From Mesostigma viride (Eukaryota > Streptophyta > Mesostigmatophyceae > Mesostigmatales > Mesostigmataceae), in the NCBI GenBank assembly GCA_009746045.1, contig RPFO01000418.1, forward strand, positions 2,295,334 to 2,359,333: a stretch of DNA of 64,000 bases, read 5' to 3'. The translations under genes and the position numbers were made by a program. Below the pieces are notes generated by a model. It saw only the letters and a program-made list of their open reading frames with translations, did no database searches and was not told where the DNA came from. Position 1 is the first letter of the stretch; each line of letters starts with the position of its first letter. Positions 15,731 through 55,511 of this stretch are shown piece by piece.

Positions 15731-18700
15731 GTGAGGGGGGTGGATTTTATGGGTTCAGCCCTTCAGCAGTAGAGGGACTTGGGGTCATCAAGGCGAACCA
15801 TTGCGCGTGATGGAGTCATCACGGTCATCAAGGCTAGCAATGTGAGATTGGCATGAGCATTTCGTCGCCATGGCCACCAAGGCTAGCAGTTCAGGTTTAC
15901 CGGTTGTGCATTTAATAGGGTTTCACCAGTAGTGGCCACCAGGGAAAGTAGTTCAGGTTTAAAGGTTCTGCATTACACAGGGTCGCACCCAACGTGGCCA
16001 CCAAGGTGACCAGTTCAAGGGCTGGAAATGACAGCGCGTATAGGGTCAGCCAGGTGGACCGTTCAAAGGGCTCAAGGTGGAGGGCCTGCGGTCACCTAGA
16101 TGGGGGGCTGGGTGGCTGCCTGCGCTAATTGGTGGCTGCCGCAACCCGAGTGCTGGCTGCTGTGCTGTGCGCCCCTTTCTGCTCTCCTTGTTCGCATCCT
16201 GCTTTCGTTCCTGTCCCCGTGCTGTGGGACAGCACATCTCAGTACAGTGCACTCCGACAGTTATGCAACAGTTAGGCCACGGCGGATTAGCCTGTGAGTG
16301 ACTGAACGGGCTCATGCATGCATTACCCATGAGACAACCATGATGGGTTACATGCCCATGGGTTTGCATGCATGAGTTTGTTTGCTTTCACCCGCCTCCC
16401 CCCTTGCCCGCTTGCTCAACGGCCCGCTTGCGCTCATGCCCGCTTACCCACGTGCCTACTTGACCGTTTTACCATCCCTGGCTGCCACCCACGCCTGCCA
16501 GGTGGCGACGGGCCACCCCGTCGGCGCGGTCTTCGCCATCCCTCTCAGTGAGGCGGCCACGCTAGTGAAACACGCCAGCGACCCCGTGCCGGATGAGAGC
16601 ATCAAGGCGGTGCTGCGCAGCGGGGGGCACGACGCAGGGCTCAGCCTGTACACGGAGGAGGACGGGTACTACGTTCGGCACCGCCCATGGGTGACGGATG
16701 CCAATCTGTGTCGGATGGAACGACGGGTGCTCCATGAGGTGGCCGCGGGGGCGGAGCGGCGGCGTGCGCTGGCTCAGAAAGGGGTCAACCCCCAGGGGTA
16801 CCTCGGCCCTCGCGGCGGTCCGGCCGACGAGAACAACAACGAGAATAATCCTGGCAACGCAACGGACGCGGCCTCGGTGGCCCAATCGCTCGCAGAGAGG
16901 GACGCGCGTAACGCGGCCGCGCTGGCGTCCGTGGTCCCGTCCCCCATGTCGTCCGACTGGCGGCGCGTCCAGCGGGGGTATTGGTTCGCCAGCAACGGCC
17001 GGCTGCACGCGCTTCCCGACGCGACCAAGGGCGGGCTGTCGCGGCCCCCGTACATCTTCAACGAGAACGCCAAGTACCTGAGGAGGGTGCGGGTTGACCC
17101 GAATGCGACCCGCGTGGCCAGGATGGACGTGAGCTATTGGCTGGACGTGGAGATCGTGCGCATCGAGATGGCCGCGCATCGGCTCATGATCCGGGAGGAG
17201 TGCCTGGCCGTGGAGTTGCTGGAAGGGTGGGTGGTGCAGTGGACGCTAGTGCGTGTGCGCTTTTCTCGGGTATGCTTGTGTGTCATTATACGGCAGCAGT
17301 GCCTGGTCGTGGAGTTGCTGGAAGGGTGGGTGGTGCAGTGGACTCTAGTGCGTGTGCGCTTTTCTCGGGTATGCTTGTGTGTCATTATACGGCAGCAGTG
17401 CCTGGCCATGGACTTGCTGGAGGGGTGGGTGGTGGAGTGGGCGCTAGTGTGTGTGAGCTTTTCTCTGGTATGCTTGTGTGTCATTATACGGCAGCAGTGC
17501 CTGGTCGTGGAGTTGCTGGAAGGGTGGGTGGTGCAGTGGGCGCTAGTGCGTGTGCGCTTTTCTCGGGTATGCTTGTGTGTCATTATACGGCAGCAGTGCC
17601 TGGCCATGGACTTGCTGGAGGGGTGGGTGGTGGAGTGGGCGCTAGTGTGTGTGAGCTTTTCTCGGGTATGCTTGTGTGTGTGGTGACGCGTGGAGGAATG
17701 TCTCACACAAGAGCTGTTGAAGGTCTGGGTGGTAGAGCGTAGGGTATTGTATTTGTCTGTTCGAGCATAGGGTATTGCTATTTTTAATGTCCGTTAGTGC
17801 GCAGGGTTTTGTAATGTCTGTGTCTTCCGTGACATCTTGTAAACATGCCTGCCTGTGGTCTGTGTCATTGTATGTGGACAGTGGCTTGCGATGGATCTTT
17901 AGGAGAAGTTAGAACAGGAGCGCGGATGGGAGTGGCAATGCCCCTGTCCTCTGGTTGCGCTTTGTCCCACATGTTCCTGACTCTGGTGTATGTCATGACA
18001 AGGGAGGAGTGGCTCGTGCTGGAGGGCTGTGGGTGGGTGGGTGGGTGGGTGGGTGGGTGGGTGGGTGGGTGGGTGGGTGGGTGGGTGGGGGCGGGCGGGC
18101 GGGCGGGCGGGCGGGCGGGCGGGCGGGCGGGCGGGCGGGCGGCGGGCGGGCGGGCGGGCGGGCGGGCAGGCGGGCGGGCGGGCGGGCGGGCGGGCGGGCG
18201 GCGGCGGCGGGCGGGCGGGCGGGCGGGCGGCGGCGGGCGGGCGGCGGGCGGCGGGCGGGCGGGCGGGCGGGGCGGGCGGCGGGCGGCGGCGGGCGGGCGG
18301 GCGGCGGGCGGGCGGCGGCGGGCGGGCGGGCGGGCGGGCGGGCGGGTGGGTGGGTGGGTGGGTGGGTGGGTGGGTGGGTGGGTGGGTGGGTGGGTGGGTG
18401 GGTGGGTGGAGTATTTTAAGGGCTGTGGGTGGAGTGGCAAGTGTTTCTACTCAGGCCTTTGGTTAAACCTGGCCGAATCTGCCTATCTCAAGCTGTGGGT
18501 GTATTGCCTCACTATCCAACAATTTGGGGAAGGATCTTCCACACACCCTGCTCCCTCCCTGACCCGTCCCCACCCCGTAGGTGCTTTGGCTCACCCACGC
18601 CTCCTTCCTACCCCTTTGCTTCCAACCTTAGCTCCCCCCACGCTTCCCTTCCACCCCCCGCCCCTCGCTTGTGCCTTCTAACACCCCCTGCCACAGCTAC

Positions 18701-21700
18701 AAGGAGTTCAAGAAGAAAGAGCGCGCAGGCCTTGTCGCGTTTTACGCGGAGAAGCTCAAGGGGCTTGAGGCCGGGCTGGCGGACGCCCGTCACGAGCTGG
18801 CGGCGGCGCATCTGGAGACGGACGTGAGTGAGCTGGAGGCGCGCATCAGGGTGATGGAGGCGGAGGTGGAGGAGATGCGGGCGCTGCGGGACGCAGAGGC
18901 GCTGCGCGGCATTGAGATGATCCGGCGGCTGCGCGAGCTGTACGCGATGATCGAGAAGGTGAGGGCGGGGGTGGGGGGAGGTGGGGGTACATTGGGGAGG
19001 GGGGTGGAGAATCGTTTTTATCATCATCTAGAGGAGCTGTGTACGATGATCGAGAAGGTGAGGGGGGGCACATGTAGAGGGGTTTGTAAAGCCATTTTCA
19101 TGGTCATATAGAGGAGCTTCACGCGATGATCGAGAAGGTGAGAGGGTGGGGGGGTGGGGAGGGAGAGGGGCTACACGCAAAGGGGTTAGTAGAAGTACGA
19201 CTTTGCAAGGGAGCTGGACACTGATCGAGAAGATGAAAGGGGAAGGGGGGGGCGAAGGGAGAGAGACTACAAGGTGAAGGGTATGTACAAGTATGACAAT
19301 GTGAGGGCGCTGTACACAACTATCGAGAAGGTGACAGCATTTTCACAATCCAACGCAAGGCAAGGGGGGTGCCTTGCGAAGCCATATGAGGAAGGGAAGG
19401 AAGGTGGGGGTAGCCACATAGAGGGGGGGTTGTCGAACCATTCTCTCGTTGCCATCCAGAGATCTGTACAAGATGGTCGAGAAGGTGAGGGTTTGAGGGA
19501 AGGGGGAGGGGTTATTGGTGAAGGGGTTAGTAGAAGTTTTTTGCTTCATGACACGTGAGGGAGTTATACGGATGATCAGCGAGGCGAGGAGATGAGAGAG
19601 AAATGGTGTGGTTGTGTTTGGGTCCCGAGTACAGGGGTAGCATTATCTCACATGTCTGGGTCAAGGATCTGTACATGATGATCGACAAGGGAGGATGGGA
19701 GGGAAGTTGGCCAGGTGCCAAGAAGGGGGTGCACCACCCCAACTCTTATCCACTAGCCAATGAGCTGTGTGCTATGATTGACAAGGTGAGGGAAGGAAGG
19801 GGCCAAGAGAAAGAACCCAGGGGGGAAGGCAGCAATGTGCAGATCGCTATGGGAATGGTCGAATCCAGGGACGGAAGACAGTCAGAGCTGACGTTTGCAG
19901 ATTGTAATAGATTTGCGCAGAACATGAATTTGTGTCCCGCCCGCCGCCGCCCTCCCCTTCCCCTTGCCCCTCCCCCCCCCCCCCCCCCCCTTTATTTTCT
20001 ATCCTCTTCTTTCTTTTCAGTCCTTTGCCTTATTTCTCCGAAACGCGCTTACCTGACTGTGCTTCTACATTTTGTCATCCTTCGGCAAGCATCTAGACGT
20101 GTCCTGCAAGTATTTCTCAGCTTCTCCATATCCCTCCAGGTTTGTGCTTTTCTTATTGTCGGTACGCAACTTTCCCTACTCACACCCTCCTCCTTTCCCT
20201 GTATTCGCGATGTTCTTCAGTGGGATGAACGTTCCCTACTCACACCCTCCTCCTTTCCCTGTATTCGCGATGTTCTTCAGTGGGATGAACGTTGCCTACT
20301 CACACCCTCCTCCTTTCCCTGTATTCGCGATGTTCTTCAGTGGGATGAACGTTGCCTACTCACACCCTCCTCCTTTCCCTGTATTCGCGATGTTCTTCAG
20401 TGGGATGAACGTTGCCTACTCACACCCTCATCCTTTCCCTGTATTCGCGATGTTCTTCAGTGGGATGAACGTTCCCTACTCACACCCTCCTCCTTTCCCT
20501 GTATTCGCGATGTTCTTCAGTGGGATGAACGTTCCCTACTCACACCCTCCTCCTTTCCCTGTATTCGCGATGTTCTTCGATCCCTGTATTCGCGATGTTC
20601 TTCAGTGGGATGAACGTTGCCTACTCACACCCTCCTCCTTTCCCTGTATTCGCGATGTTCTTCAGTGGGATGAACGTTGCCTACTCACACCCTCCTCCTT
20701 TCCCTGTATTCGCGATGTTCTTCGATCCCTGTATTCGCGATGTTCTTCAGTGGGATGAACGTTGCCTACTCACACCCTCCTCCTTTCCCTGTATTCGCGA
20801 TGTTCTTCGATCCCTGTATTCGCGATGTTCTTCAGTGGGATGAACGTTGCCTACTCACACCCTCCTCCTTTCCCTGTATTCGCGATGTTCTTCAGTGGGA
20901 TGAACGTTCCCTACTCACACCCTCCTCCTTTCCCTGTATTCGCGATGTTCTTCGATCCCTGTATTCACGATGTTCTTCAGTAGGATGAACGTTGCCTACT
21001 CACACCCTCCTCCTTTCCCTGTATTCGCGATGTTCTTCAGTGGGATGAACGTTCCCTACTCACACCCTCCTCCTTTCCCTGTATTCACGATGTTCTTCAG
21101 TGGGATGAACGTTGCCTACTCACACCCTCCTCCTTTCCCTGTATTCGCGATGTTCTTCGATCCCTGTATTCACGATGTTCTTCAGTAGGATGAACGTTGC
21201 CTACTCATACCCTCATCCTTTCCCCTATTCGCGATGTTCTTCAGTGGGATGAACGTTGCTTGTGGGTAAGCTTATGCGTATGCGAACCTCCCTGAAACGA
21301 ACATGACAACATATGCCACCGTGTCATGAACTAGTTTCCAGCTGGTTTGAACCCCCTCCCCCCCCAGGTGTGTGCGGACCATTCACCCTGGTTTTCCGAA
21401 CCTACCTGAACACATGCCACTGTCATGAACCTGTTTTCAAATGTTCTTTCGCCCCCCTTCCCCCCCAGGTGCGGGAGGACCATTCACCCTGTTCATTCAC
21501 AGCTCCCTGAAACGAACATGACAGCCCATGCCACTGTCATGGACCGGTTTTCAACTGGTTTTCGATCGACTTTTTGCCCCCCCCCCCCCCCCCCCCCACA
21601 GGTACGGGCGGACCAAGGCTTCAGCAGCAGCCAGCTCAAGCTGGTCATGAAGAAAGTGGAGCCCGACGCGGACGACAGCATCACTGAGGCGATGGAGCGC

Positions 21701-24700
21701 GAGCGCGAGGCGGAGGAGCTGCAGACGCGGCTGGACCAAGCCGAGAAGGAGCACGGCGCCCATGTGTCACGCGAGCTGCGGGCGTACGAGGCGGAGCTCA
21801 AGGAGTTGGAGGCGCGCGTCAAGGCAGAGGAGGTGCGTGGTTGATTGTAGGGAGGCAGTGTGTATTATTGTAGAGTATAGTGTATACTGTGATAGGACAG
21901 GCCCGGAGGTGAACCGGTGGCGAGCCGTGGGCACTCCATGCATGTTCTACCCAAGTGAGGGCACAACTTGCATTCGACCCGTTTCGATGGCCATAATTTG
22001 TAAACCTTTGGTCGTCACGCCTTGGGTTTCAGGTGCATTGACACATGCCATCTGCTACACTTTTGTGTGTCTGTGAACCTTTGGGCGGCACGCGGTCGGT
22101 TTCAGGTGCATTGACACACGCCATCTGTTATCCATATCCTTCTGTGTGTTTATACGGTGGTCTGTGGCGACCTATCGGTTTATCGCCTATTGGTGGAGCC
22201 TTGCCCCATGTCTACTTGCCTTCAATGAACGATCCTGCACTCTGCTTTTTGGGGGGGGGGCATCGCTTGATCCTTGGCTACTTGTACGTAATGCCCCATG
22301 GCTACTTGTATATAACGAGCCGTCTTCTCCTTCGCCTTTATGACATCGGATCGATACGTCCAGGCCCGCTTTGAGGCCGACTGCGCGTACCGGCGGCAGC
22401 GCCAGCTGGAGGAGCTGCAGGAGGGGCTGCCCACCAACCTCGACAAGTAAGCATCCGATGAGGACCGACTGTCATGACATGATGATCCAGCGCTCATCCA
22501 ACAACATGAACCCTGAAACTTACACCCACTAACCTGGATAAGTAAGCAAATCCGATAAGTATCTTTGGTCATACCATGCTTCTAATAATACTAATTCTAA
22601 TAATACTAATTCTAATAATACTAATTCTAATAGTACTCATTCTAATAATGCTTCTAATAATACATGAAGGATTTACGAGGGCATTCTCCTGTGAATGATT
22701 AGAAAGTGCAGCAAATTGCGGATCGAAGTTACCAGTTGGATAATGGACTCTAGACACAAGGGCGTGAATCGACAGCAGAATGTAAGGAATTCAGCTCCGG
22801 CCTCTGCTGCCCAACTGGTATCCTTGTCGAGGCTGTGCATGTGCACGTGATTCATTTTTTGTTGTATGCTGAACAACAAGCCCCCGCTGGCGTTTCCTTG
22901 AGCATTCCCACCCATTCATGCATATATCCCAATATGTGTCTCATTCGGCACACCCACCCACTGCCTGGACACCTACCCTCTGGCCCGCCTTCCAGGGACG
23001 CGGAGGAAGAGGAGGCGGAGCGTGCTGCGCTGGACGCGCTCAAGCAGCAGCTCGAGGATAAGAAGGTGGAGCCCGAGTGGCCTTCCTTCAACGAGAAGCG
23101 CACGAGAAAGCAGATCCTGGCCGCCATCCGCGCCGACCGGGCCAAGGGGCACCTGGGCAGCCCCTCGCTGGTCCCTGTGCTCGTCGCGGGGCTCCCGCGT
23201 GACGAGGGGGAGAAGCTACCGCCGGGCGAGGCGGCGCGCCGGCGGGACCTGCAGCGGGTGCGGCTGCTGTGCCACCTGTTCGTGAACGGCAAGCCGGTGG
23301 GGCAGACGGAGCCGCGGAGTATCAAGGGGGACCTCAGCCTCGACTGCAAGGAGAGGTTCAGCCTGCAGGTGCGTGGTGGGCCAACCTGCTTTATTATTTC
23401 TGCACAGTGCCCGAAATGCGCAACCATGCTAGTTGTCGCTTTTCTCTCCTGGCCTTGTCCATGGTGGGTTGCGGGGCATGAGGTGGACCACTAGATAAGG
23501 ATGGTCATGTCTGATAAGGTATAGTTAAGTACGGTAAGGAAGGTTAGGTAGATAAGGATGGGCACGCATGATAAGGTATGGTAAGGTTTGCTACGGAGGG
23601 TTTAGTAGTTAAGGATGGCCATGGGGGACTCTCACCTGCAGGTGCATGCTGAAGAAAAGGAGCCAGTGGACATGGTTGCTTTAAAGGGGGCGCGGGACGC
23701 ATTTTTAGAGAAGGTAGTGGTGTGGCTATTATCTTACGACGGTGAAGGAGACGTGCAGCCTGCAGGAATGTGCGGGGGATGGAGGTACAGTATGTTGGGC
23801 CTTCGTCTATGGGATGATGGTGTGTCGTTGGGAGTGGGATGATGTATGAACGAGGAGACGCTCCTCTTGCAGATGCGTGGGTTCGTGCGTGCTTGTCTGA
23901 CGGGTACATCATGGGAGACCTGACATCACTAGTCTTATCACCGCCCACCCACAACGTCTCTTTCATGATCACACATCTCCCATATCCCCTCGTTTCATCA
24001 CAGGTCATCAAGTGGCCGGAGAGCGTGTGCGTGAAGGTCTACGAGAAGGGGCTTCTCTCCAACGCCTTCCTCGGGGAGGTCTTCCTGGGGGTCCCTGGCA
24101 TTGACGGGGGGCCCCTGGCTGACCCGCAGCCCCTCCCCTATCAGTTCACGGGTAATGCCCCCTTCCAGCCGACGTGGCTCGCGGGGGATAACTCGGCCGG
24201 GCTGCACTACACGGCGGGCTCGGTCTACTGCCAGGTGGGTGGCCAGGGCGAACGCTCAGTGGAGAATTGAGGACGTGGGCTTACAGTAGGTACAGGCAGT
24301 TGCAGATGGGAGCTGTTGATTGATGAAAGAAGATGAAATGTGGGCTGGCAGCTGTCCCTCATCGTATTCGATGCAGCAGAATGGTATGGGATATTAGTGG
24401 GCGTGCCGCTTGTTAGGGGGATATTGTGTGTGCTGGACCTTAGTTTTCGGATGTGTATTTGCAGGGTCTTGTTTTTGGATTTTGTTTTTGCTGGATCTGG
24501 TTTTGGGATATTTTACTGTGGGATCTTGTTACGTTTCCCTGAGGCTGGCAGATATCGGCTTGTTCTTGCGTAGAGAGGGGGAAAGCGAAGCGGGGGCCAT
24601 CAGTTTCTGGGATTTTGTCAGTTTTCTGACACAGTGAATTGGCCCGTCGCATGGTTGTGGCAATGTCGCGCAACCAGAGTGGTTGCATAAGTCTGCGGCA

Positions 24701-27700
24701 GTTACCAACTCTGGGTTGTGAACCCGCTGGCGTTGTGCGTACGATTGCGCCAGCTTCAGCCTCCCATTCGCTGCATGGTTTTGCTCCTACGGCTTCGCAA
24801 GGCAACTGCCCAAGCGTTGTGGTGACTAGTATAGTGACCGATGGGTCTAGTACAGCATACTAGTGCTTCGCAAGGCGACCGCCCAAGCGTTGTGGTGACC
24901 AGTATAGTGACCAATGGGTCTAGTATAGCATACTGCGGCTTCACGAGGCGACCCCTGTTGTAGCAGTTGTTGACGCGCTGGCAGGGCATAGGTGGGCGCA
25001 GGTCTTCATAACAAATTAGTAGTGCATCATAGCCCATGGTCCCCGCCCCTCTTCCCTCTCCCCGCTCCTCGCCCCCCTCCCCGCCCCTCTTTCCCCTCCC
25101 CTCCCCTCGCCCCCCTCCCCGCTCGTCGCCCCCCTCCCCGCCCCTCTTCCCTGTTCCCCCCCTCGCAGGTTTCCATCACAAATTGGTCGTGCATCTTGAC
25201 CCATGGCCCACACCCCTCTTCCCCCTCCCCCCCACGCAGGTCCAATGGGGCTCTCGCGCACCGGATGGGACACCACCCGACATGGAAGCGGCGGCCCCCG
25301 CTGCCCCTCCCGTCCCCATCGGCATGCGGCACGCGGCGCCACACCAACGCAAGCAGCTAGGCGCGGCGGGACAGGTAACGCCCACTGTTCTGCCATGAGC
25401 TATCTCACATGATCAGTCTGCGGGTGGGGCATGCCTGGTGGAAAGAAATTTTCTGCTACGTAGGAATACCAATTGTTCTTCGATTCACCTACCACAGGAA
25501 CCTGGAAATCTCTATGGCAATGTCTTTTGTCTAGTCGGGGCCCATAAACTTTCTGGATCCGAATCGTACAACCGAACAGGTAGCGGCTGGGCCAACATAC
25601 GTGGGGAGAGCAGAGGGATTTATTACTGGCATCTGCTCATGCTCTGCGACATTAATGAATGAATTAATTATCACGTAGACTGCGTCACGTGCGTACCAAT
25701 GAAAGAACCTTCAACCCCTATGCACAATGTGAAGGAGGGAGGGCGCCCAAGCTTCTCTCTCTGCCTCAAGTGGGCGGCAGGCCACAGAGCGCTCTCTCCG
25801 CATCATTTTGGTGGTGCAACTGTGGTTGCAATAAAGCTTCGGCATAGCAAAAGCATGGCGGATGCAGTAAGGCTGCCCCGACCACGGTCCAGAGCCCACA
25901 GATAGGCTTTGAACGCATTTAGAGGCGCCAGATTGGGAGAATATACAGGCCTCTCCCGGAGCCTGAGGGTTTTTAGGGACAACCCCCATTCCTGGCATCT
26001 GCTCATGCTCCGCGACATGGTCGACATGCTAGCACATGTTAGGGTGTAGGATTGCCACATGCATGGTCCGTGTTTTCGTTTTTGTGAGCACCTCAGCGCA
26101 ACTGCCATGCAGCGGCACGCGCTACGGCAGTGATGGCACCCACGGCGCAAACCGATGTATAACCAGGCCTGCGCTGGTTGTCTCCTTGACATAACCAGTC
26201 GTTCCCCTACGGTTCTATGTTCCACTGCCCCAAGCATCCACCGGTTGTTCCCCTACGGTTCTATGTTCCACTGCTCCAAGCATCCACCGGTTGTTCCCCT
26301 ACGGTTCTATGTTCCACTGCCCCAAGCATCCACCGGTTGTTCCCCTACGGTTCTATGTTCCACTGCTCCAAGCATCCACCGGTTGTTCCGCTACGACACG
26401 GTATAACCTGGGCTCTATCTAAACGGGTCTACGGGTGCTGGGCGTGCTGTAAGTCAGACCCCTGCAGGTGTGCTGAGCCTAAGACGGATATGGCTGGGGC
26501 ATGCTGCACGCGTTGCCTTGTGTGTATTCCATCGCATCCGTGCAGGTGTCCTCATACAACCTCGTGCAATGGCTAAAGCAGACGGGGATCGACCCCAACG
26601 ACCCGCGCAATGCCGGCGTGCTCGAGCTCATCAAGGTACGTGCTGGGCGCCAGGGTGACCTTGCCATTTCAAATGCTAACCATACGAATAGTTTATAGTG
26701 GTATACTCGTGCACTTACAGAATGCTAGTATTATATAGCGGTATACTAGTACGCTCTACATCATGCTAGTATTATGTAGCGGTATACTAGTACGCTCTAC
26801 ATCATGCTAGTATTATATAGTGGTATAGTAGTACGCTCTACAGCTTAAGTATACAAGTAGTCGAGCCCAACGGCCCGCTTAACTCTGGCGTGCTTGAATG
26901 ATCAAGGGGAGTTGCAGCCGTACCGTAAAATACTCTTGAACGCTGACAAGCCTGCATGTACAAGCCGCACAACATGGAGGCCCCTGCTGCCCCCCCACGC
27001 TACGCTCTTTGCATCAACTGGCTGCTTGTGCCCCGCACGCTCACACATCAACTGTTCTGCACTGCTTGTGCCCGCCCTCCTGCTCTCCCTTCCTGGTCCC
27101 ACGCCTCCGCCCTCCTGCCCTCCCTTCGTGGTCCCACGCGCCCGCCCTCCTGCCCTCTCTTCCCTGCCCCACGCGCCTGCCCTCCTGCCCTCCCTTCCTG
27201 GTCCCACATGCCCAACCGCTTGCCCTCCACAGACGCGGCAGGCGCTGTCCGGCAGCAAGGGCCACCGCATCAACACGGGCGACGAGCTAAACCTGGGCGA
27301 CGGCACCTCCAAGCTGCCCAAGCGCCACCACCTCATCCGCCTGCGGTGGGAGAAGGTGCGCTGTGATGGGGGCACTAGAGCGGCTGTTCTGTCGGTCACT
27401 ATATCTGTTCAGTATACCCCCCAATCCGCCTGCGATTTCGCGAAGGTGCGCTGTTCTGTTGGTTGTTATTGGTGTTGTTGGCGCTGGGGGAAGGTGAGCG
27501 ACCGGTGCCCTAAAAGGGCCGTTCTGTTGGCTGGTTTGGACTTGGCTTGTACTAAATTCCGTGACTCGCTGGGTTTACCTGCCAGGGGAGATGGTGCGCC
27601 AGTTGCGCTAGTCGGTGCGCTAGTTGCATAATGGGGCCGTTCTGTCAGCCACCCTAGCAGGGCGGTGTTTGCGGGAGAAGGTGCACTGGATGGCGGCAAC

Positions 27701-30700: not shown

Positions 30701-33700
30701 CTTCACGCCCATATGGGGGTTTTCGCTGCCTGTGGGGCTTTGGGGACCACTTATTTCCTGCGTTTGGCTCTGGGAACGCAACATTAGGGGATTGCTTGGC
30801 AAAGCCGTAGCATGCTGTGGGAAGTCCCGTGAACTGGACGAGACGTAATTTTACTGCAATGCTGTGATCAGCTTGCATCGATCTGAGCCAAACTAAGCTG
30901 CCAGCATTCACGCGGTCCTCTGCGCTCAGCGACCATCTGCTACAACGGTGCTCGGGCATCTTCCTCTCGTGCTTGCAACGGTGCTCGGGCATCTTCCTCT
31001 TGTGCCTGCAGACGGAGGATGTGGTCAATGACTCCCCGCTGCCAGACTTCAAGCTTGACCTCTCCTTCATCATGGTAATGTGATGGAGGTGTACATTAGA
31101 CATGACTCGCAATTGGGATGTGGGGACCATTGGAGGCTAGTCCAACCAGAGGGACCGTTGGAGTGTAGTCCAACCACAGGGACGATTGGAGTGTAGTCCA
31201 ACCACAGGGACGATTGGAGTGTAGTCCAACCACAGGGACGATTGGAGTGTAGTCCAACCACAGGGACGATTGGAGTGTAGTCCAACCACAGGGACGATTG
31301 GAGTGTAGTCCAAACAGAGGGTCATTTTGTTAGAATTACATACTAAACACATGTGCTCGCCTAGCGAAGCCTTGGCCATCACAGTTATGCATGTGCGAAG
31401 CCTTTGGCATCACAGTTATGCATGTGCGAAGCTTTTGCCATCACAGTTATGCATGTGCGAAGCCTTTGCCATCACAGTTATGCATGTGCGAAGCTTTTGC
31501 CATCACAGTTAGCCCTGTACACCATGGCTTGGGTGTCAGCCCGCCCAGCGTGAGGCCGTGGGCACAGGTCCTGCTATAACGACCAGGTCAATCGCCTTCA
31601 GGCAGCGTGGCTGGGCGGGTGTGAGCTGCAAAGAGGACTGCCACCATGCTGGCACCACACCAAGCACACAGGTAGCCCCTTCTCGTGCCGCGCCACGGTG
31701 GTGCTGGTCTTACATATTTTATTTGACACAACAACACCGTGACTACAAGTGCTGCATTATTACCGTTTTCTTCACTTCTATTGCTGTCATCCGCAGGAGG
31801 CGCTCAAGCCTCGCCGCAAGCTGCGCCCCGCACGTAAGCAGGTCAAGGTGCTGCAGACGCACCCCGACGCGTGCGACGTCAAGGTGAGGCAAAGTCACGA
31901 TTCCTGCCTGTAAGAGCTGTAACACATGTGTAGTTAGCACACGTGCGTGCGACGTCAAGGTGAAGGGGGGCTGAAATCCGTCACGTAGCAGCTATGGATG
32001 CATGTGCTTGCGACGTCCAAAATACGGTGGAACCGTGGTCTTTGCTCATGAAGACGTGGTTAGGTGCCCACATGTCTGCCGCCCCACCCGTAACTGCGGA
32101 CACACCGACCCGACCCCCTGTTGGCCTCACTGCGCATGCCTCTCTGGGGCCTCTCGTGTGCTGTTCTTCCCGCCATGTCGTCGCCATCCCCCCTCCCCCC
32201 ATGTCTTCACTATTCCACCTCCCCATCCCCCCTGGCCCCCCACCACAATCACCATCTCCTGTTCCCCCAAACACACACTGCGCAGGTGTATGTGCAGAAG
32301 GCGTACAACATCTCTGTGCGCACGTCCGTGCTCGACCAGGGGCGGCCTGCCAGGTAATCACCAAGTTACTGTTATGTGGGTGCTAAAGCCATGATAATCT
32401 GAACTTGATGCCGCACTGCCACATATATGCAACGGATTTTTCGCTGTAGGTAGATCACTTAAGAATCACTTAGCAATACACAATCACTTGCTAATAATGA
32501 TCACTTCATAATCACTTCATAGTTTTAAAATACTACTATACATTTATAGGTACGTTGCTACCGAGATAGCTTCAAGGGACATATATGCATGCTGTCTTCT
32601 GTTTTGGTTCCTGGTTCATGTTCAGGGGACAGCTGCTCGGTGCCTCCTGTGGTTCTTGCTCAATACTGCTACTGCTAGTACTAGTACTATTTTATATCCT
32701 CCTCTCTAGTTCTCCAAATGGTACTAAAGAAGTTCTTCTCGCATCTGTAGCATGCCAGCGCATGTCCATCAGGCAGCGCATGTCCATCAAGCGTTTTTTG
32801 CGGGCCAGGAAGGCTACTAGGAGATCTGCACTATGCGTTCGCATCTAGCCCATCATGTCTCCGCATGTACTGCCGCCGCCTGCTGTCTCTTATTCATGTA
32901 TCCCCCCCGAGGTCTATCAAGCTTGCACGGGCGATCGCTTTAGGGGCCAGATCATTGGCCGCCAGATCATTCGAGCACAGGGATGGGACCCGTGTGTTGT
33001 TCGCTCGTAATGCGCTGCGCGTATCATTACGTCAAAGTCAGACCATTGCCAGTCTGCATGCAGGCACTCCTGCGTACCTCTACTGCTTCCATAGCAGCTA
33101 TCCATTTGACCTCCTCTCCACTTTGTCTTGCCGCCTGCCACGCTTCCCACTTCTTGCCTGCCCTTCCCAACCCTTCCCAACCCTTCCCTTCCCTTCCCTT
33201 CCCTTCCCTTCCCTTCCCTTCCCTTCCCTTCCCTTCCCTTCCCTTCCCTTCCCTTCCCTTCCCTTCCCTTCCCTTCCCTTCCCTTCCCTTCCCTTCCCTT
33301 CCCTTCCCTTCCCTTCCCTTCCCTTCCCTTCCCTTCCCTTCCCTTCCCTTCCCTTCCCTTCCCTTCCCTTCCCTTCCCTTCCCTTCCCTTCCCTTCCCTT
33401 CCCTTCCCTTCCCTTCCCTTCCCTTCCCTTCCCTTCCCTTCCCTTCCCTTCCCTTCCCTTCCCTTCCCTTCCCTTCCCTTCCCTTCCCTTCCCTTCCCTT
33501 CCCTTCCCTTCCCTTCCCTTCCCTTCCCTTCCCTTCCCTTCCCTTCCCTTCCCTTCCCTTCCCTTCCCTTCCCTTCCCTTCCCTTCCCTTCCCTTCCCTT
33601 CCCTTCCCTTCCCTTCCCTTCCCTTCCCTTCCCTTCCCTTCCCTTCCCTTCCCTTCCCTCCCTTCCCTTCCCTTCCCTTCCCTTCCCTTCCCTTCCTTCC

Positions 33701-36700
33701 CTTCCCTTCCCTTCCCTTCCCTTCCCTTCCCTTCCCTTCCCTTCCCTTCCCTTCCCTTCCCTTCCCTTCCCTTCCCTTCCCTTCCCTTCCCTTCCCTTCC
33801 CTTCCCTTCCCTTCCCTTCCTTCCCTTCCCTTCCCTTCCCTTCCCTTCCCTTCCCTTCCCTTCCCTTCCCTTCCCTTCCCTTCCCTTCCCTTCCCTTCCC
33901 TTCCCTTCCCTTCCCTTCCCTTCCCTTCCCTTCCCTTCCCTTCCCTTCCCTTCCCTTCCCTTCCCTTCCCTTCCCTTCCCTTCCCTTCCCTTCCCTTCCC
34001 TTCCCTTCCCTTCCCTTCCCTTCCCTTCCCTTCCCTTCCCTTCCCTTCCCTTCCCTTCCCTTCCCTTCCCTTCCCTTCCCTTCCCTTCCCTTCCCTTCCC
34101 TTCCCTTCCCTTCCCTTCCCTTCCCTTCCCTTCCCTTCCCTTCCCTTCCCTTCCCTTCCCTTCCCTTCCCTTCCCTTCCCTTCCCTTCCCTTCCCTTCCC
34201 TTCCCTTCCCTTCCCTTCCCTTCCCTTCCCTTCCCTTCCCTTCCCTTCCCTTCCCTTCCCTTCCTTCCCTTCCCTTCCCTTCCCTTCCCTTCCCTTCCCT
34301 TCCCTTCCCTTCCCTTCCCTTCCCTTCCCTTCCCTTCCCTTCCCTTCCCTTCCCTTCCCTTCCCTTCCCTTCCCTTCCCTTCCCTTCCCTTCCCTTCCCT
34401 TCCCTTCCCTTCCCTTCCCTTCCCTTCCCTTCCCTTCCCTTCCCTTCCCTTCCTTCCCTTCCCTTCCCTTCCCTTCCCTTCCCTTCCCTTCCCTTCCCTT
34501 CCCTTCCCTTCCCTTCCCTTCCCTTCCCTTCCCTTCCCTTCCCTTCCCTTCCCTTCCCTTCCCTTCCCTTCCCTTCCCTTCCCTTCCCTTCCCTTCCCTT
34601 CCCTTCCCTTCCTTCCTTCCCTTCCCTTCCCTTCCCTTCCCTTCCCTTCCCTTCCCTTCCCTTCCCTTCCCTTCCCTTCCTTCCTTCCCTTCCCTTCCCT
34701 TCCCTTCCCTTCCCTTCCCTTCCCTTCCCTTCCCTTCCCTTCCCTTCCTTCCCTTCCCTTCCCTTCCCTTCCCTTCCCTTCCCTTCCCTTCCCTTCCCTT
34801 CCCTTCCCTTCCCTTCCCTTCCCTTCCCTTCCCTTCCTTCCCTTCCTTCCCTTCCCTTCCCTTCCCTTCCCTTCCCTTCCCTTCCTTCTTCCCTTCCCTT
34901 CCCTTCCCTTCCTTCTTCCCTTCCCTTCCCTTCCCTTCCCTTCCCTTCCCTTCCCTTCCCTTCCTTCCCTTCCCTTCCCTTCCCTTCCCTTCCCTTCCCT
35001 TCCCTTCCCTTCCCTTCCCTTCCCTTCCCTTCCCTTCCCTTCCCCCTTCCCAACCCTTCCCTTCCCTTCCCAACCCTTCCCAACCCTTCCCAACCCTTCC
35101 CAACCCTTCCCGACCCTTCCCAACCCTTCCCAACCCTTCCCAACCCTTCCCAACCCTTCCCAACCCTCCCCATTCCTTCCCAATTCCTCCCAATCCCCCC
35201 CAAATCTTCCCATCTTCCCAACCAAAAGGTTTGGCGGGGACGCGGGCGGCCACCCCAGTGAGACCCACCGATCCCCGCGCCGGGGCGGCGCCGGGGCGGG
35301 AAGCCGAGGCGACCGCGCCGACGACCGTGCCGGACCGCTGAGCGGTGGCGGCAGCGTGGACGACGGAGTGTTGGGCGGGGAGCGCGTGAGCCCCTTTGTG
35401 GTGGTCAGCTTTCAGGGGATCACCAAGCGAACGAAGACGAGCGAGGGGCCCAACCCTCAGTGGAATGAGCTGCTCTCGCTGCCCTTCCACCCGCCGAATG
35501 GCAACTACAATCCGACGCTGCTCAAGGTGGGTTGACGGGGGTGGGGGGGTACCGGGTGGGGGGTTGAGGGGTGTGCGGTGAAGGATTGTTATCATAATAC
35601 ATATATTGGTGCTTGTCGCATTTGTGAAACCCCGACGCTGGTCTTAGTGATTGGACGGGGCCAAGAGTGGGGGGTGTTGTGAGAGCATCAATGGTAGGGT
35701 GGGAGGTCTTGGGTTGAATGGGGCGTTAGACCAAGGCGATCACTCCTCAGGTGGTTGGATCGCACTGTCAGAGTCAATATGCAAGGGTTTCTCTTTGCAA
35801 CGGAATCAAACTTTGTTGCCATGGATACTAGGCTGGGGGCGTTGGATCAAAGGATGGTTTATATAAGTGAAGTGAAATGAAGGCATCCCTTCAGAGCACA
35901 CGTTGATGCGATTCTAGACGCTTGCAGAACCTGTTTCAAGGAAATTCTCTTATGAAGGGAATCCATTTTGAAAACCCACTTGCGGATCCCCTTTGTAGCG
36001 AGCTTTCGTTTATAGCCCAATTCAAGAGCTTCAAGAGTGTCCCCTCTGGAAAGTCCTTTTCCCTGGACCCTCCCTATACCCCCCTCTGCACCCCCCTCGT
36101 GAACCACCTTGAACCCCCCCTCTGCACACCCCTCGTGAACCACCTTGAACCCCCCCTCTGCACACCCCTCGTGAGCCACCTTGAAACACCCCTCTGCACA
36201 CCCCTCGTGAGCCACCTTGAAACACCCCTCTGCACACCCCTCGTGAGCCTCCTTGAACCCCCCCTCTGCACACCCCTCGTGAGCCTCCTTGAACCCCCCC
36301 TCTGCACCCCCCTCGTGAGCCACCTTGAAACACCCCTCTGCACACCCCTCTTGAACAACCTTCCTATGGGCGTGCAGAACCTGCAAGATGAGATCCACAT
36401 CTCCCTCTTTGACGAGGTCACGGTGAAGGTGGCGGAGTCGGAGTCCACGCTGGGCGCTGACCCCAACATGAGCGAGTACCGCACGCTGGCGCGCTACCTG
36501 GGCAGCACCAGGTGAGGCTCAACATCTCATCGTGCGCCACTGCCAACACATGAGTGAGTACCGGGGCAGCACTAGGTGAGCAGACCTGCATGTGCTGCTA
36601 TCATGGCACTCCTAACGACCCCGTAGCAAAAAAAAATTACAAAACCCATGTGGTGATGCGTTCCAACCTGCCTTTCCCCACCCCACCCCACCCCACCCCC

Positions 36701-39700
36701 ACATGACGTTCCCCTTGCGCTTGCACACGCCACTATCCACCCCTCTGGCTTTACTACAATCGCACCCGACGATCTACCTCTTTTGGCTGTACAAAGTACT
36801 TCTGTGAGCGCATGAGGTATTGCATTCCCCGTATCCTCTACTCCCACCCCATCCCCCCACCCCATCCCCCCACCCCATCCCCCCCCCCCACCCCCACCCA
36901 CACACGCACACGCACGCACGCGCACACACACACACACACATACACACACACACACGCAGCATCCCCGTCGGCGCCGTCTATCGTTCGCGATTCATCGAGG
37001 GGGCGTTCCGCCTCTCCGTGCCGCTCGTCAACCTCGGCTATTTTTGTCCCGCCGCCGACGGGCCCACGCTCATCTCGCTCCACATCTTGCTCAAGCCTGA
37101 CCTGGTGCGGCCGGTCGAGGTGAGCGAAGTTAGAAACATAAGAGTAGTGTTATGCTGGAGCCCGGAGCTTGTCCTGATACTACCATTGTGACACGGTTGT
37201 ATGCTATATGTCACACGGTTGCGTTGAGCCATGCCGGTCCTAGAACAAAGAATTGTGTGTGCAATATGTTGCACTCCCCACAAACACATTTGGCACATGA
37301 TGTGGCAAGCCTGGTAGTAATGGAGGCATTCGGCTAGACAATGTGTGCTACGTATAGCTAGAAACACTATCGATAGCTAGAAACACTATCGATAGCTAGA
37401 AACACTATCGATAGCTGGAAACACTATGGACACTTTGAACCAGCCATGCGATGGGTTGCCCATGCTAGCCGCAATGGCACTACGGCTTCGCAAAGCAACC
37501 CCCTAGGGGTTGGCTTGCGATAATGTTGCATGCTAGCCGCATTGGCATGCTAGCCGCATGCCAGCTCGTGTCTTCCAGGCTGCGACAGGGAGAAAGAGAA
37601 GGCATGAAACAAGAGTGAACAAGGGACCACTGCGCGCCATGAATGACGGCCTCACAATGCATGGCCTGTGCCCCCTTCATCCTTTTCTTTTCTTCCCATC
37701 CCCCGATATTCCTCCCCTCCCCCCACCCTTGCCCCACCTTTGCCCCGCCCTCGCCCCACCCCCACCCTTGACCCACCCTTCCCCCAAACTTGCCCCACCC
37801 TTGCCGCAACGTCCCCCCACCCCCACCCTTGCCCGACCTCCCCCACCTTGCCCTCCCCCCCCCATCCTTCCCCCAACCTTTCCCCAAACTTCCCCATCTC
37901 ACCTTCCACCGCATCAGACGGTCGAGGAGATGCGCAGCGGGGAGGGCGAGGACCTGACGCGTCATGCAATGCGCTGGCGCCGCGAGCTGCTGGCCATGGA
38001 CCACGTTCGGCCGCGGGTGATCAAGGCGCTGGCTGCAGACATGGACGGCGCCGGCGTGCTGCTGTGCCGATTTGTGTGCCCGCTGCCGCCGCCGCCGTCG
38101 CTGGCGGGCGTCATCGCGGGCGCGCGGAAGGAGACAGTGCTGCGGTCGCTGCTGCGGTTTGTGAGCATGATTCCGTACGCGTCCGATTGGAGCACCTTCT
38201 CCAGCCGAGAGGTGAGCTATCGCGCTAGTGCTGTTGTGCAAATACCGGTGCCAACAATGACGAGGGAGTTTTCTGGGGTAGATAGCGTTCGTGTCTGATT
38301 GGAGCACGTTCTTACCCAAGAGGGGAGAGGTGGCTGATGCCAAGAGCTCTGTGACCACAAGTGCTGTCATGTTGATACTGTAGTGTTGATACTGATACTA
38401 ATATTAGCAAGGAGTGCTGTTACCACAAGTGCTGTCATGTTGATACTGTAGTGTTGATACAGATACTAATATTAGCAAGGAGTGCTGTTACCACGAGTGC
38501 TGTCATGTTGATGCTGTACTGACAAAGAACTGTACATTTGGGATAAACAACCCCCAACTAGAGACCTTATCCAGCCAATAGGTGTGTGTGGGAAGGGGGG
38601 GGGCATAAGCGCTACAATCCTCCTACAATATTGGAATATATTAGTGCAGGCATACTCTAAATCTGTAGATAAAAATACTCTAGCACAGCATAGACAATCA
38701 CTGTGAGGGCAGTTTGTGCTCACAGCTGTCTCATGGCTGCAAAATGAGGGGGCCCGAGATGCTGCGGAAGCATAATGGCCAACAGCTATATCATCAATAC
38801 AATAAATAGCTACCACAATATCATTAACAAAACAAATAGGGTACATAAATAGGGGCACTTACTGTGATACTGCTGATGTCCTCGTCATTCAAGCGGGTCG
38901 TAGCAGAGAGAATCACAAATGAAATCCTCATGTGGATTGCAACCCCCCTTGACTTGTGCCACTTTCCTCTCTGCCCTTACTAGGCCTCGCGAGGGCCCCC
39001 CCTGGTTGGATTGGGGTCGCTGTGCCAAGTTCTAGTAAGCCCTTGTTACCTATCGCTGCCCCCCTGCTATCTATCCCTGCCCCCCCCCCCCCCCCCTCCT
39101 TGCCTGCCCATCCCCAGGACGTGTGGGTGACTTGCCGAGACTTCTTGGAACTGTGCGCGGGCGACCACGAGGAGCACGCGCTGCTTCTGTGCAACCTTTT
39201 CCTCTTCCAAGGGGTGGACGCGTACGTGGTGCTGGGCGGTGGCCTGCACGAGACAGAGGCCGCGTACGTGCTCACCAAGGAGAAGAAGGAGGGCACCAGC
39301 GACGACGTGCTGCGGATTTGGAACGCGACAACGGGGAATGTGGTGGACTGTGCCGACCCGTCCAGCGAGCTGAGGGAGGTGGGTTTGTCGGTCTATAAAC
39401 AGAGTGCTATACCTTATAAACAGTCCTTTACATCTATGCCAGGCGCTAACCTTTGCCGACCCGTCAAGCGAGCTGAGGGAGGTGGGCTTGTCAGTCTATC
39501 AAAAGAACACTGTATAAACACTGTATGCCGAATGCTCACCTTGCCGAGCCGTCCAGCGAGCTGTGCGAGGTGGGTTGCTCATTTATTAGTAGAACCTTTT
39601 TCATGGTGTATACCCTTTACGCACTGGTGTTATTTACTACAGTACAAGGCTTGCTTGCTCATGGTGTATACCCTTTACGTACTGGTGTTATTTACTACAG

Positions 39701-41609
39701 TACAAGGCTTGCTTGCTCATGGTGCATACCCTTTACGTACTGGTGTTATTTACTACAGTACAAGGCTTGCTTGCTGACCCATCCAGACAGCTGAGGGCTG
39801 TGAGATTTCATCATTATAGAACCCCTTCCAAAAACGTTAACCCTTGACGTATACGTACAATGATCGCCTTGCTCATGCCCGTCGTGCTCATGCACATCCG
39901 TTGAGCTTAGGGAGGTGGTTATCTATGTATCTACTGATCCCTTATCTACTGATCCCTTATCTATGTATCTACTGATCCCTTATCTACTGATCCCTTATCT
40001 ATGTATCTACTGATCCCTTATCTACTGATCCCTTATCTATGTATCTACTGATCCCTTATCTATGTATCTACTGATCCCTTACCTTCGTTTATGCACAAAG
40101 CTCGCCTCGCCGACCCAGCTAGAGAGCTGAGGGAGGTGGTCATTCTATGCACAGGACGATGGCTGTTGCTAGTCATGTGCAAAGGTCCTAGGATCCATCC
40201 AGTGAGGTGAGGAAGGCGAAACCTTATACTTGCCCCTAAATTGTATGAATGTTCCAGGCACAGACCCCCTGAAAGAGTGGTATACTATTCGATAGAAATG
40301 AATTTGCATCATTCTAGGTTTGTAGTCCCACATTATGTCTATACTCTACATTCGACAGTCTAATGTGGCATGCCTGGCTGCATGGTGCTTCTCTCACCTC
40401 GCTGGGTCACTTCCCTCACACGTCCCTCGTCCCGCTGTGGACGCTGGGCATATCCCTGGTACCGCTGCGGTGGCTGTTATCTTCAGGTCGGCACCGTGTT
40501 CAACGACAAGAACATCTGGGCCAATATACAGAAGGCCGACCTTCCCTTCGCGGTCAACTGGGACCTGACCATCACCAAGAACTGGCGGCCCTTCTTCCAG
40601 GAGAGCGTGCTCCCGCCGCGCGTCTTGGGCACCGTGCAGGTGAGGGAGGGGCGAGGGGTGCATGAGCCATAAATAGCTCTCGAATCCCTCAGCGTTCAGA
40701 ATTGTCAGTGGTGTTTTGCGCTGGTGTGCCATAAGTGCGGCTCCACCACAATGCTGCCTCCCGTCCCGCTGCCCTCCAGACAGCCGCTGTTCGAGTAGCT
40801 GACCTTGCTCTGACGATGTGCGAGAAACATTATTCATCTCTTGAAACGGAAGAAACGTATTTGTTCCCCCCCGCCCTCAGATGAAAATGCTCTACGTGTT
40901 GTAAATGATGTTCTTCCAGTGTTGTGAGAATACAACCTCCCCCTTGTCAGCCCTTGTTATGCAGACGCAGACGGGCGTGCCGTACAAGTTGCTGCTGGTG
41001 CTCTTGTGGCATGCTGAGTATCTATATTACGAGTATCTACATTATGAGTATCTTTATTACGAGTATCTATTATTTCGAGTATCTATATTATAAATATATA
41101 TAAATATACTATGGCATGCTGAGTATTTATAGAACCTTCCCTTCTGTCCCCCCTTTGATCTCTTTTGTCCTTCTCTTCTTCTGTCCTTTTGGCTCTCAGA
41201 CGGACGTGATGTACAAGTCGCTGCCACCCGGGTTCTACGAGGACCTGGAGGGCACCCTGGAGCGCGATGTGATGGATGCGATCACCAAGGCGCGCAAGCT
41301 CACGTTCACGCACTTCAACCGGCGGTACGTGCGCAAGAGTGCGATAGCATTTCATCCGGTGGTAGGTTCTAGTAAAAGAGCACTTTAACTACCAGTTTGC
41401 TAGAATAGTGGAGCTTTGACCATAGGTAAAGACCTATGAGTTGGAATAGTAGGCTTTAGCCGCTGGTAAGCTTTCCCTTTCTTTATTCATTCCTCTGTTC
41501 TCGCATATACCCATTCACTCGCTCATCCAGTCGCACAAACACATCTATCTATTCATGCGTTTAAGGATATGCCATGCCCTGCATCTGCTAAGACAGGCAG
41601 GCAGGCGGG

Positions 41610-41657
<48 letters not shown>

Positions 41658-41677
41658 CAAGCAGGCAGGCAGGCAAG

Positions 41678-41713
<36 letters not shown>

Positions 41714-44700
41714 CATGCTGCAAGTCAACCACTCCCCAGCTCACTGATCAGCTTCATATGTCCCTAACCCACCCACCCCCTGCAGCTGTAGCCGCATCCT
41801 GCGGGAGCTGCTGCATGACCTGGAGGGCGAGTACACGTCGATCGCGGAAGCGCTCCACGTTACAGTGACCCCTGCAATGCTGTCGCATCGCCGCGCCGCC
41901 GTGGAAGACGAGGCCGAGGAGGCGAACGAAGAGAATCCTCCCGGGGAGTGGCGGATGGGCAACCGGGAGGCGGACGTGGGGGGAAGGGCGGGGGTGAGCC
42001 GGCGGCGTGCCGGAGGGAAGAAGAGGGTCTCTGCGACGCTGGCGGAGGCGCACTACGACGCGCTGGCGCCCGTGCTCAAGAACTACAATGTGGTACGGAG
42101 GCTCCTTTTGCGAATGGAATCTACAATGCGGCGTGGAGGCTTGATGCGTGAGAACAAGAACTATAGCGTGGTGTGGGGGCTTGATGCGTGAGAACAAGAA
42201 CGATAGCGTGGTGTGGGGGCTTGATGCGTGAGAACAAGAACGATAGCGTGGTGTGGGGGCTTGATGCGTGAGAACAAGAACGATAGCGTGGTGTGGGGGC
42301 TTGATGCGTGAGAACAAGAACGATAGCGTGGTGTGGGGGCTTGACGCGTGAGAACAAGAAGTACGATGTGGTGTTGGTACCAGATCAAGGAATGGGAGCT
42401 ACAAGGTGGTATGGGGTCTTGAGGAGCGAATAGAGACCTAGGTGGTGGCAGGCTGAACAAGTGGTTGAGCCCTTCCATCAGGCCTGCGACTGCGTATTCG
42501 GGCAGATAAAGGAATCCGTAATGCCTCTCGTAGCTGCCAGCTGGACTGAGCGCCACAGTTCCCCCGCCGGGATGCGATGCCACGTTGCACTTTATCAATA
42601 CTTGAACTTTCCTGCACTCTTTTGCGGATGTTACCACCGCCTCTTGCTCATGTTGTCGCCACCCTTGGCTTATGCCGCCGCCGTGATGCCCTGCCATGGC
42701 ATCATGTAAAACAGCATCACTGCAAGACTTTGACCTCCAGGGTACAGGTGCCTTGGTGACTTGGAAACTGCTTGAGCTCTACCGTGCAGGCCACCCTTCC
42801 ACGCATTTCTGGCTGATGCCTTTGTCACCACGCTCACGCTTCCGCTTGCTGTGCCATGTATGTCGCCCGATGCCCGCGCTTGCGCTTGCTGTGCCATGCA
42901 TGGCGCCCAAGGCCCGCGCTTGTGCTTGCTGGCTAGGCATGGTTGCCCAATGTTCTGGTGGGGCCACGCTCCCAGTCCATGCATTTGTAGGACACGAGCG
43001 CGCAAGTCCATTCGTTTGGGAGCGCGTGCGCGCCAACAGGACAGCATATGCATACATACTGCGCTGGAAGGATATGCATGCATACTCCACATTATTGCAT
43101 GGCATACTCCCAGGGTCATCCTATTGCGCTCCATGCCTACCTGCTGCGCTGTTGTGCAGGCAAATCAAGAAAGCTGACCTCTATCATATCTAATTGGTGA
43201 GACCGTGAGCCAAGACATTGTGCCGCACTGTCTACTTTCTCTGTGATTAACCACCTGCTTGTTCTACACATGCACTTCTGTTCTATCGCGGTGCCCTGCC
43301 CCGACACGCCTCCCCCCCCCCCCCCTTGCCCCCAGGTGGGCTTCCCCCTCTGCATGTCCTTCACGTGTGTGCTGCCCCCCACACGTGCTTCTCCCCCCCC
43401 CCTCCCCCCCCAACACGCTCTCTCCTGCGCTCTCTCTCTCCTACCTCAACACGGCCCCTCACATCTATATCCTGTGTGTTTTCGTGTTTTGGTGCCTCCC
43501 CCCCCCTCCCCAGGTGGGCTTCCCTCTCTGCATGTCCTTCACCGACATCCCCTCGGTCGCGCGCGCCGTGCTCGACACGGGCATCCACCGCAACTTCTCG
43601 AAGAACGTGGAGTTTGCCATCGCGATGTAAGCGCTGTAATTAGGGTGAATCGTGGGTGGGAACGATGGGAGGGTGGGAACGATGGGAGGATGGGAACGAT
43701 GGGAGGATGGGAACGATCCGCGACTCGTGTTTAGGGCAGGTCGCGGATCTAATCACTCCGCCCTACTGAATTGAGGCGTTTTTCACTACTTTTTCAGGCA
43801 GGTGTGTTTCACTAGTTCGTATTGTTATCTATGGAAGAAGCTTTGTATGGATGCATGCGTGTGTGGAGCTGGAGCCACACATATGTAACGCGCCGTAGCA
43901 TGCCACGTGGCGCGTGTCGTGGCTGGAGCCTTGCATGCACCCCAATCCGCACACACGGAACTGGACGCTAACAGCGCACTCACACCGGTTCGGGCGACAC
44001 CACACCACTCGGCGCAGCAGCATTTAGCTGTATGCAACCAAGGCAACCATTCAATAGACCGACGTGCCGTCGCAAGTTACACCTTGTGGCCCGACCCTAG
44101 TCTGTGACAGATGCCATGCGGCGTGGTCACAAATGACTCATGACGGCTCGGACCCCAATGTGACATGGCCTTTTTGCGTGGGGGTGGGGGTGTGGGTGTG
44201 GGGGAGGATAATTTGCGACAAGGGTGTCTAGGGAAAACGTTTGTGACCGACAACCAAGCTGTTGCAATGTTTACAGTGCCCAGGTCCCGGTCGGTTGGTG
44301 GGATGAGTGTGGCGGTTTGGGTCAATCTTGTCTGTGCTACCATTTGTCGTGCTATTATTTGGCATGCATTTTACGTGAGACCTTCCTCTGCCTCTGCCGG
44401 GTTGCCCTTGCTGGAACGTTGGAAATGTCAAATGCATGGGATGTCTACCATCAATACGCATGGGTTTTCACGCCATGGGCAGCCCCAAGTTAACTCCAGC
44501 TGCCAAATGCCGCGCTTCTATTCAAAGGAAGTCACTTCCTGAGGATGGCTGTCTCCCTCGATGTGTTCCTGCTAGTGTCAACAGATCATCCATGCGTCCT
44601 GTCGAAGATCAGCCATCGCTTCCTGTCGAAAACCTCTGATTTCTGCCGATGTGCCTCTCCCCCTGTCTGCCCCTATTGCCTCGGGTTTTGTCCCATGCAA

Positions 44701-46725: not shown

Positions 46726-46760
46726 GCTAGTATAATCGGTTACGGCTGTAACGCAGTATT

Positions 46761-52442: not shown

Positions 52443-52830
52443 CTAGCTGGAGGCCCACCGTCTTCCCCGCTCGCGGGGTAAGGCGGGGGCGCCTCCGCTG
52501 CTGCTCATCTTTGAGACCCCGGCGGACAAGATTTCGTTTCTCAGATGCCGCAAGCGACTCGAGAAGACCCACTTCACCCTGGACGACGACTTGACCCTGG
52601 CGCAGCAACAACGGCAACGGGAGCTATGGCCCAGCCGTGGCCTGCCTACCTCCAGCTCCGGCAGACCGCAGGGGGAAGCCGGTGTACTGGAAGGGGGCGA
52701 ACATCTACGTACGTCGGCCACAAGCCCTGGCATGCATGCGCACGCGACCCCCGCGGCCCCAGCACCTCCAGACACCCCAGCTTATAAGCATATAGGGGAA
52801 TACAACTCAGTAGTAGTGTAGAATAGTAAG
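52443..52830 (+). pseudogene. Degenerate LINE ORF1 C-terminal fragment
   Basis: The frame reads KISFLRCRKRLEKTHFTLDD then DLTLAQQQRQRELWP, matching FLSRRKKL...SLDDDLTPAQQQQRRDQWP of the ORF1 at 48.1 kb. A frameshift follows: the VYWKGANIYV-like block is in another frame. It is a second, more decayed family member. Confidence 0.75.
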
Positions 52831-55162: not shown

Positions 55163-55511
55163 TTAGGGTGTATGGTCAAAAACCTGGTACAGCTGGTACT
55201 GTAGCTGGTACTGTAGCAAGCTTTTAAGGACGACCCCCCCCTTCATAATCAGCAGCAGGGATGTGTCCGGTGTCTGCAACACCCTGAGGTCCTCCAAGGG
55301 GTTCCCATCCACGAGCAATAAATCCGCGATCGCCCCTTCTTTCACAACACCCAGCTGGCCCTGGTGCCCCAGCAATGCAGCTGCGGTACAGGTGGCGCCT
55401 TGGATGATCGCGCCCGGTGGCTGCACGGCCGACCGGATGCTGAATTCGCTTAGCTGGTGGCGGTGCATGTTGCCCAGCAGGTCGGAGCCGTAGCAGATCT
55501 TCACGCCGCTC
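55163..55511 (-). CDS. Amidohydrolase exon 3
   Basis: It enters phase 2 (AG|G = Arg) after CACCAG and encodes SGVKICYGSDLLGNMH through IADLLLVDGNPLEDL. The last ~20 residues (QYQLQYQLYQ region) come from a short GTACAGCTGGTACTGTAGCT duplication just before the stop. Confidence 0.9.

Follow-up and report, generated by a model that had tools for sequence, protein, structure and literature searches.

The introns of CC2D2A, a cilium gene, in the streptophyte green alga Mesostigma viride raise the question of where repeated copies of an exon end inside the following intron come from, and whether they do anything there. An initial annotation of this DNA had claimed that most introns of the gene start with copies of the exon end plus the 5′ splice site. 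We examined the claim in the window, the whole stretch of 64,000 nt that was analyzed, in which CC2D2A occupies positions 14015-44914 (+ strand) with 25 coding exons and 24 introns.

Serial copies of donor junctions in CC2D2A

A draft protein joined from exons in the window gave two matches, the top one being P0001 (EukProt, jgi Mesvir1, Mv12380). After the addition of three small exons and the adjustment of two ends, the model translates letter for letter into this public protein. Pfam finds a CC2D2A N-terminal C2 domain (CC2D2AN-C2) and a CEP76 peptidase-like domain in the product, so the gene name given earlier stands. The M. viride genome paper describes the introns of this alga as long, with a mean of 1141.9 bp, and assigns 30.1% of intron space to repeats (PMC6947507, section 2.3). 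Most of intron 15 of CC2D2A is taken up by a CTTCC array of 2 kb (33153-35181).

For each donor junction, the last 45 exon nucleotides and the first 15 intron nucleotides were scored together against their own intron and against shuffles. The query outscored the shuffles in its own intron at 14 of the 24 junctions (P < 0.05), with one to eight copies each, whereas the same queries found matches in 31 of 552 tests against other CC2D2A introns (all off-diagonal pairs; a smaller control took 120 nonneighboring pairs). This own-intron versus other-intron and shuffle comparison, which the initial annotation had itself proposed, bears out its claim for CC2D2A. The copy-bearing introns are as follows, each interval being on the + strand.

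Intron 2, 17184..18040 (+): donor 17227; five copies (17326, 17425, 17524, 17623, 18033), four of them within a young 99-nt array with 92% matches between units
Intron 3, 18935..19792 (+): donor 18959; eight degenerate copies at steps of 80-154 nt
Intron 5, 22430..22556 (+): donor 22447; one copy, 22525-22556
Intron 6, 23349..23880 (+): donor 23369; three copies, 23635-23651, 23745-23777 and 23853-23880
Intron 9, 26591..26907 (+): donor 26636; one copy, 26863-26907, the match reaching 64 nt into the exon with a longer query
Intron 10, 27327..27693 (+): donor 27356; four copies, 27416-27454, 27481-27499, 27578-27599 and 27673-27693
Intron 12, 30018..30132 (+): donor 30045; one copy, 30101-30132
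Intron 14, 31869..31963 (+): donor 31884; one copy, 31945-31963
Intron 16, 35512..35660 (+): donor 35527; one weak copy, 35632-35660
Intron 17, 36495..36580 (+): donor 36512; one copy, 36559-36580
Intron 19, 38158..38584 (+): donor 38212; two copies, 38281-38327 and 38554-38584
Intron 20, 39348..40216 (+): donor 39379; six copies, with exon identity mostly lower with distance
Intron 22, 41310..41367 (+): donor 41325; one weak copy, 41347-41367
Intron 23, 42064..42419 (+): donor 42090; eight copies, mostly in a young 40-nt array

The list agrees with the exons named at the outset as clear (2, 3, 5, 10, 12, 14, 17, 19, 20 and 23) and with three of those named as weaker (6, 9 and 16), but exon 1 falls outside the 14 and intron 22 is an addition. 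All 43 donor copies in the 14 introns span the exon-intron junction. When a 30-nt query was slid along the boundary, the proportion of introns with matches was highest at −15..+15 (0.46) and was 0.12 both at −60..−30 and at 0..+45. Serial donor-junction copies in the introns of CC2D2A are thus confirmed. A correlation between copy number and intron length was looked for within this gene, and none was found.

The next two Mesvir1 gene models in the window, an amidohydrolase (55166-58872, − strand) and a flavin monooxygenase (59661-63566, + strand), also have introns. Of the three introns that these two genes provide, one has a donor match at P < 0.05 and none has an acceptor match; the sole donor match (FMO, 61208-61234) is weak and lacks GT at its junction position. 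Among the best 120 matches of the flavin monooxygenase, those named by organism are all bacterial besides the M. viride entry, and for the amidohydrolase a few algal matches (Alexandrium, Cymbomonas) rank ahead of bacterial ones; judging from these matches, transfer of both genes from bacteria is possible. The window starts with a (CAG)733 array (1-2201, 99% matches), and two open frames (46752-48232 and 52443-52821) resemble, by eye, pieces of a retroelement ORF1.

Probable origin by tandem duplication across the donor

Acceptor junctions were scored in the same gene, and matches at P < 0.05 were found in 5 of the 24 introns, compared with 14 of 24 for donors (P = 0.017, Fisher’s exact test). 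There are six acceptor matches overall, and those that span the boundary occur in four introns:

Intron 3, 21353-21381 and 21454-21482 (+): two copies matching the intron’s own acceptor junction
Intron 11, 29139..29175 (+): one copy matching its own acceptor junction
Intron 21, 40968..40995 (+): one copy matching its own acceptor junction
Intron 23, 43318..43364 (+): one copy of the acceptor junction before 43514, with the top score among the six acceptor matches

Tandem copies are also found away from the junctions. With junction arrays and windows of more than 30% microsatellite left out, a tandem copy lies within 500 nt of 0.29 of 195 intron-interior windows and 0.15 of 223 intergenic windows, compared with 14 of 24 donor junctions (P = 0.009, junction versus interior); without this filter, the proportions are 0.46 of 330 interior and 0.22 of 195 intergenic windows. 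Since tandem copies also populate intron interiors, the junction is enriched but not unique. The copies had been described as junction-centered rather than random intron repeats, and every copy does span the junction. The junction copies are the edge of a broader tandem-duplication habit in CC2D2A introns, and detection accounts for at least part of their enrichment over the interior, since the exon serves as a constant reference.

We consider it probable, at about three chances in four, that the copies arose by successive tandem duplications of short units consisting of exon end, donor and intron start, with the upstream donor in use and the copies decaying. Short tandem duplications, mostly of about 75-125 nt and also of 37-40 nt, would build up in CC2D2A introns, and many would cross the 5′ splice site, so that the donor is copied along with the last 15-64 nt of the exon and part of the intron start. 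One such event would leave two donors in tandem. If splicing stays on the original upstream donor, the mRNA would be unchanged and the copy would be turned into intron; such duplications would be tolerated because the upstream donor remains in use. Repeated rounds would push older copies farther downstream, where decay would set in, and exon-derived parts should be recognizable for longer than intron-derived parts because selection holds the exon end while the copies drift. The donor bias would follow from splicing polarity, because a duplication crossing the acceptor would put a wrong AG first and be less tolerated. We infer the use of the first donor in RNA, the order of events and this cause of the bias. 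Consistently, the public P0001 model takes the first donor at every copy-bearing junction. In an alignment with the Astrephomene protein, read by eye, 9 of the 14 copy-bearing junctions are free of gaps out to five residues (exons 2, 6, 9, 14, 16, 17, 19, 20 and 22); for exon 12 a gap falls two residues upstream, and exons 3, 5, 10 and 23 are gapped, unlike or outside the part shown.

The copies lie 37-837 nt downstream of their own donor, and the steps between them are 76-124 nt in 25 of 43 cases and 37-40 nt in 9 of 43. In the young arrays of introns 2 and 23, which hold 13 of the 43 copies, whole units are repeated, intron part included; figures given for old arrays (copy-copy identity, spacers, acceptor scores and donor strength) leave these two introns out. 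Adjacent spacers are alike in 7 of 27 old pairs, versus 2% of 242 cross-intron pairs, a set to which each old array contributed its first two spacers at most. Several copies in intron 3 (18959-19792) are preceded by a common motif of about 15 nt, AGGGGTTAGTAGAAGT-like, which is likely a remnant of the duplicated spacer. Divergence had been said to differ from intron to intron; across six introns in which it was measured, identity between copy and exon end ranges over 0.65-0.97. Identity tends to fall with distance from the exon in introns 2, 3 and 20 (Spearman −0.74, −0.66 and −0.71, respectively), although none of these trends is significant alone.

It is rather unlikely that a process aimed at donors, e.g., breakage that is linked to transcription or structure and strikes where introns begin G-rich, acts beyond background duplication and the splicing filter. 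The excess of junctions over interior windows would fit such a process, as would the narrow peak of the sliding profile and the dimensions of the unit, in which steps cluster near 100 nt. The exon part is 15-64 nt (median 25), and its ratio to the step is below 0.5 in 13 of 14 introns; this counts against the main reading, since with breakpoints placed at random about half of each unit should be exon, although local alignment may understate the exon part. Against targeting, arrays are common in intron interiors too, and the constrained exon keeps junction copies detectable for longer.

Whether donor-crossing tandem duplication is a continuing mode of intron growth throughout the Mesostigma genome is a wider proposition that we regard as possible but well short of probable. 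Old donors would then be carried downstream as datable fossil 5′ splice sites, some still usable, and the 5′-most donor would be set by position rather than strength. The many donor copies in this one gene suggest a way for introns to grow without harm to the protein. Were it genome-wide, introns would hold their own growth record, which can be read against an exon end that does not change; splicing polarity would be a simple reason for growth from the 5′ side; and many natural experiments would be at hand on how the spliceosome chooses among similar donors about 40-250 nt apart.

Probable decay and possible function of the copies

The conservation of old copies was profiled by leaving out each block in turn, such that the scored block plays no role in locating the copy (each block rests on 22-29 copies in 10-12 introns; introns 2 and 23 left out). 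Identity is 0.51-0.77 over −24 to −4 on the exon side (0.75-0.77 at −9..−4), 0.82-0.83 at −3..+3, 0.57 at +4..+6 and 0.32-0.44 farther in (0.38 at +7..+9). Neutral simulations in which the exon and first donor are fixed while the remainder drifts with indels (seven settings) reproduce the shape of this profile. The observed identity at −9..−1 (0.78) is above all seven settings (0.60-0.76), and for the intron part it is 0.36-0.38, among the lowest simulated values, which suggests that the core may be better kept than under neutrality. Comparing copies with each other in old arrays, identity is 0.62-0.65 in the exon part and 0.46-0.52 in the intron part (+11..+40), against 0.47 for random sequence and 0.57-0.62 for the intron part in simulations at similar exon-part identity. 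Exon-copy identity is 0.69 and 0.49, versus at least 0.77 and 0.67 in the simulations. Pure neutrality with equal decay thus reproduces the form of the profile but falls short of the observed difference between core and intron part. Decay without function is the most likely account of the copies, with a core that may decay more slowly than neutral.

A slower-decaying core would be expected if copies were kept by selection, whether as decoys or as regulated donors, accompanied by exonic enhancer sequence, to tune splicing or direct transcripts to decay. Identity peaks at the donor, GT within 2 nt of the junction is kept in 22 of 30 old copies, and 7 of the 30 equal or exceed the score of their own real donor. 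The median real donor score is reached by only 10 of 1466 intronic GTs and, under slightly different leave-one-out scoring, by six junction copies, which are probably most of these ten. Use of a copy as donor is predicted to shift the frame or bring a stop in 35 of 43 cases, as regulation through decay would need, and to keep the frame without a stop in 8 of 43. Nevertheless, −9..−4 is nearly as conserved as the donor and +4..+6 less so, as would be the case if one copy is constrained while the other drifts; the simulations yield the same shape, and GT has been lost in 8 of the 30 old copies. Selection on the copies is quite unlikely. Coding selection was also considered and rejected: changes in intron 3, counted by hand, are about 7:6:11 at codon positions 1:2:3, with no convincing third-position excess.

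It is very improbable that the copies are duplicated micro-exons (acceptor, 24-30 nt and donor) open to inclusion. By eye, several intron 3 copies follow a pyrimidine-rich stretch and AG, but with an acceptor matrix the sequence before the 30 old copies scores like random intron positions (mean percentile 0.47, with three copies in the top tenth), and donor distances fall in all three frames. An assembly or sequencing artefact is more improbable still: tandem arrays such as that of intron 2 are error-prone, but copies elsewhere are diverged and old-array spacers mostly unlike, and assembly error makes no diverged copies.

Comparison with known boundary duplications

Tandem units that each carry a splice donor are reportedly found in a minisatellite of the human 6-16 gene, which is said to have multiple donors in use. 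There the short units form one array, whereas in CC2D2A the copies are gene-wide. GYNGYN tandem donors are likewise neighboring and competing, but lie 3 nt apart and are not duplicated units (PMC1779574). Intron gain by tandem duplication of an AG/GT segment, which is described as leaving the peptide unchanged (PMC4974935), draws the GT and AG of the new intron from two copies, whereas the donor copies of CC2D2A lie inside existing introns. Such gain would place the exon-end copy at the 3′ end of the new intron, where it provides the AG. The CC2D2A copies do not fit this, as none reaches an acceptor; the closest to one, at 23873, stops 130 nt short of the intron end at 24003.

The closest likeness is to the “mirages” of amphioxus, minisatellite-like tandem duplications of exon-intron boundaries in Adh3, globins, troponin C and PGBD5, described in the sections drawn on here as having units of 10-160 bp, with AG/GT signals in many repeats and regular splicing reported for Adh3 and globins (PMC3087553, PMC3902484). 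In those sections, mirages are length-unstable, are found at one boundary of a gene or at a few, on the 5′ as well as the 3′ side, and have units that are 81-100% alike in BflGb6 and imperfect in PGBD5. CC2D2A, analyzed in a single haplotype of one genome, shares the tandem unit spanning the exon-intron boundary, seen in all of its donor copies, and duplication at both 5′ and 3′ boundaries. It differs from the mirages so described in that 14 of 24 donors of one gene are involved, with a donor bias and serial copies that have mostly diverged, and in that the host is a streptophyte green alga. Searches of an open-access library turned up no account of gene-wide donor copies, nor of such copies in Mesostigma. 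The earlier interpretation, a recurrent process that duplicates across the donor, is supported in part, with successive tandem duplication as the best reading. The kind of structure is known; its density, its bias toward donors, the series of ages and the lineage are new, and what had been described at a few lancelet loci is now seen at the base of the plant lineage.
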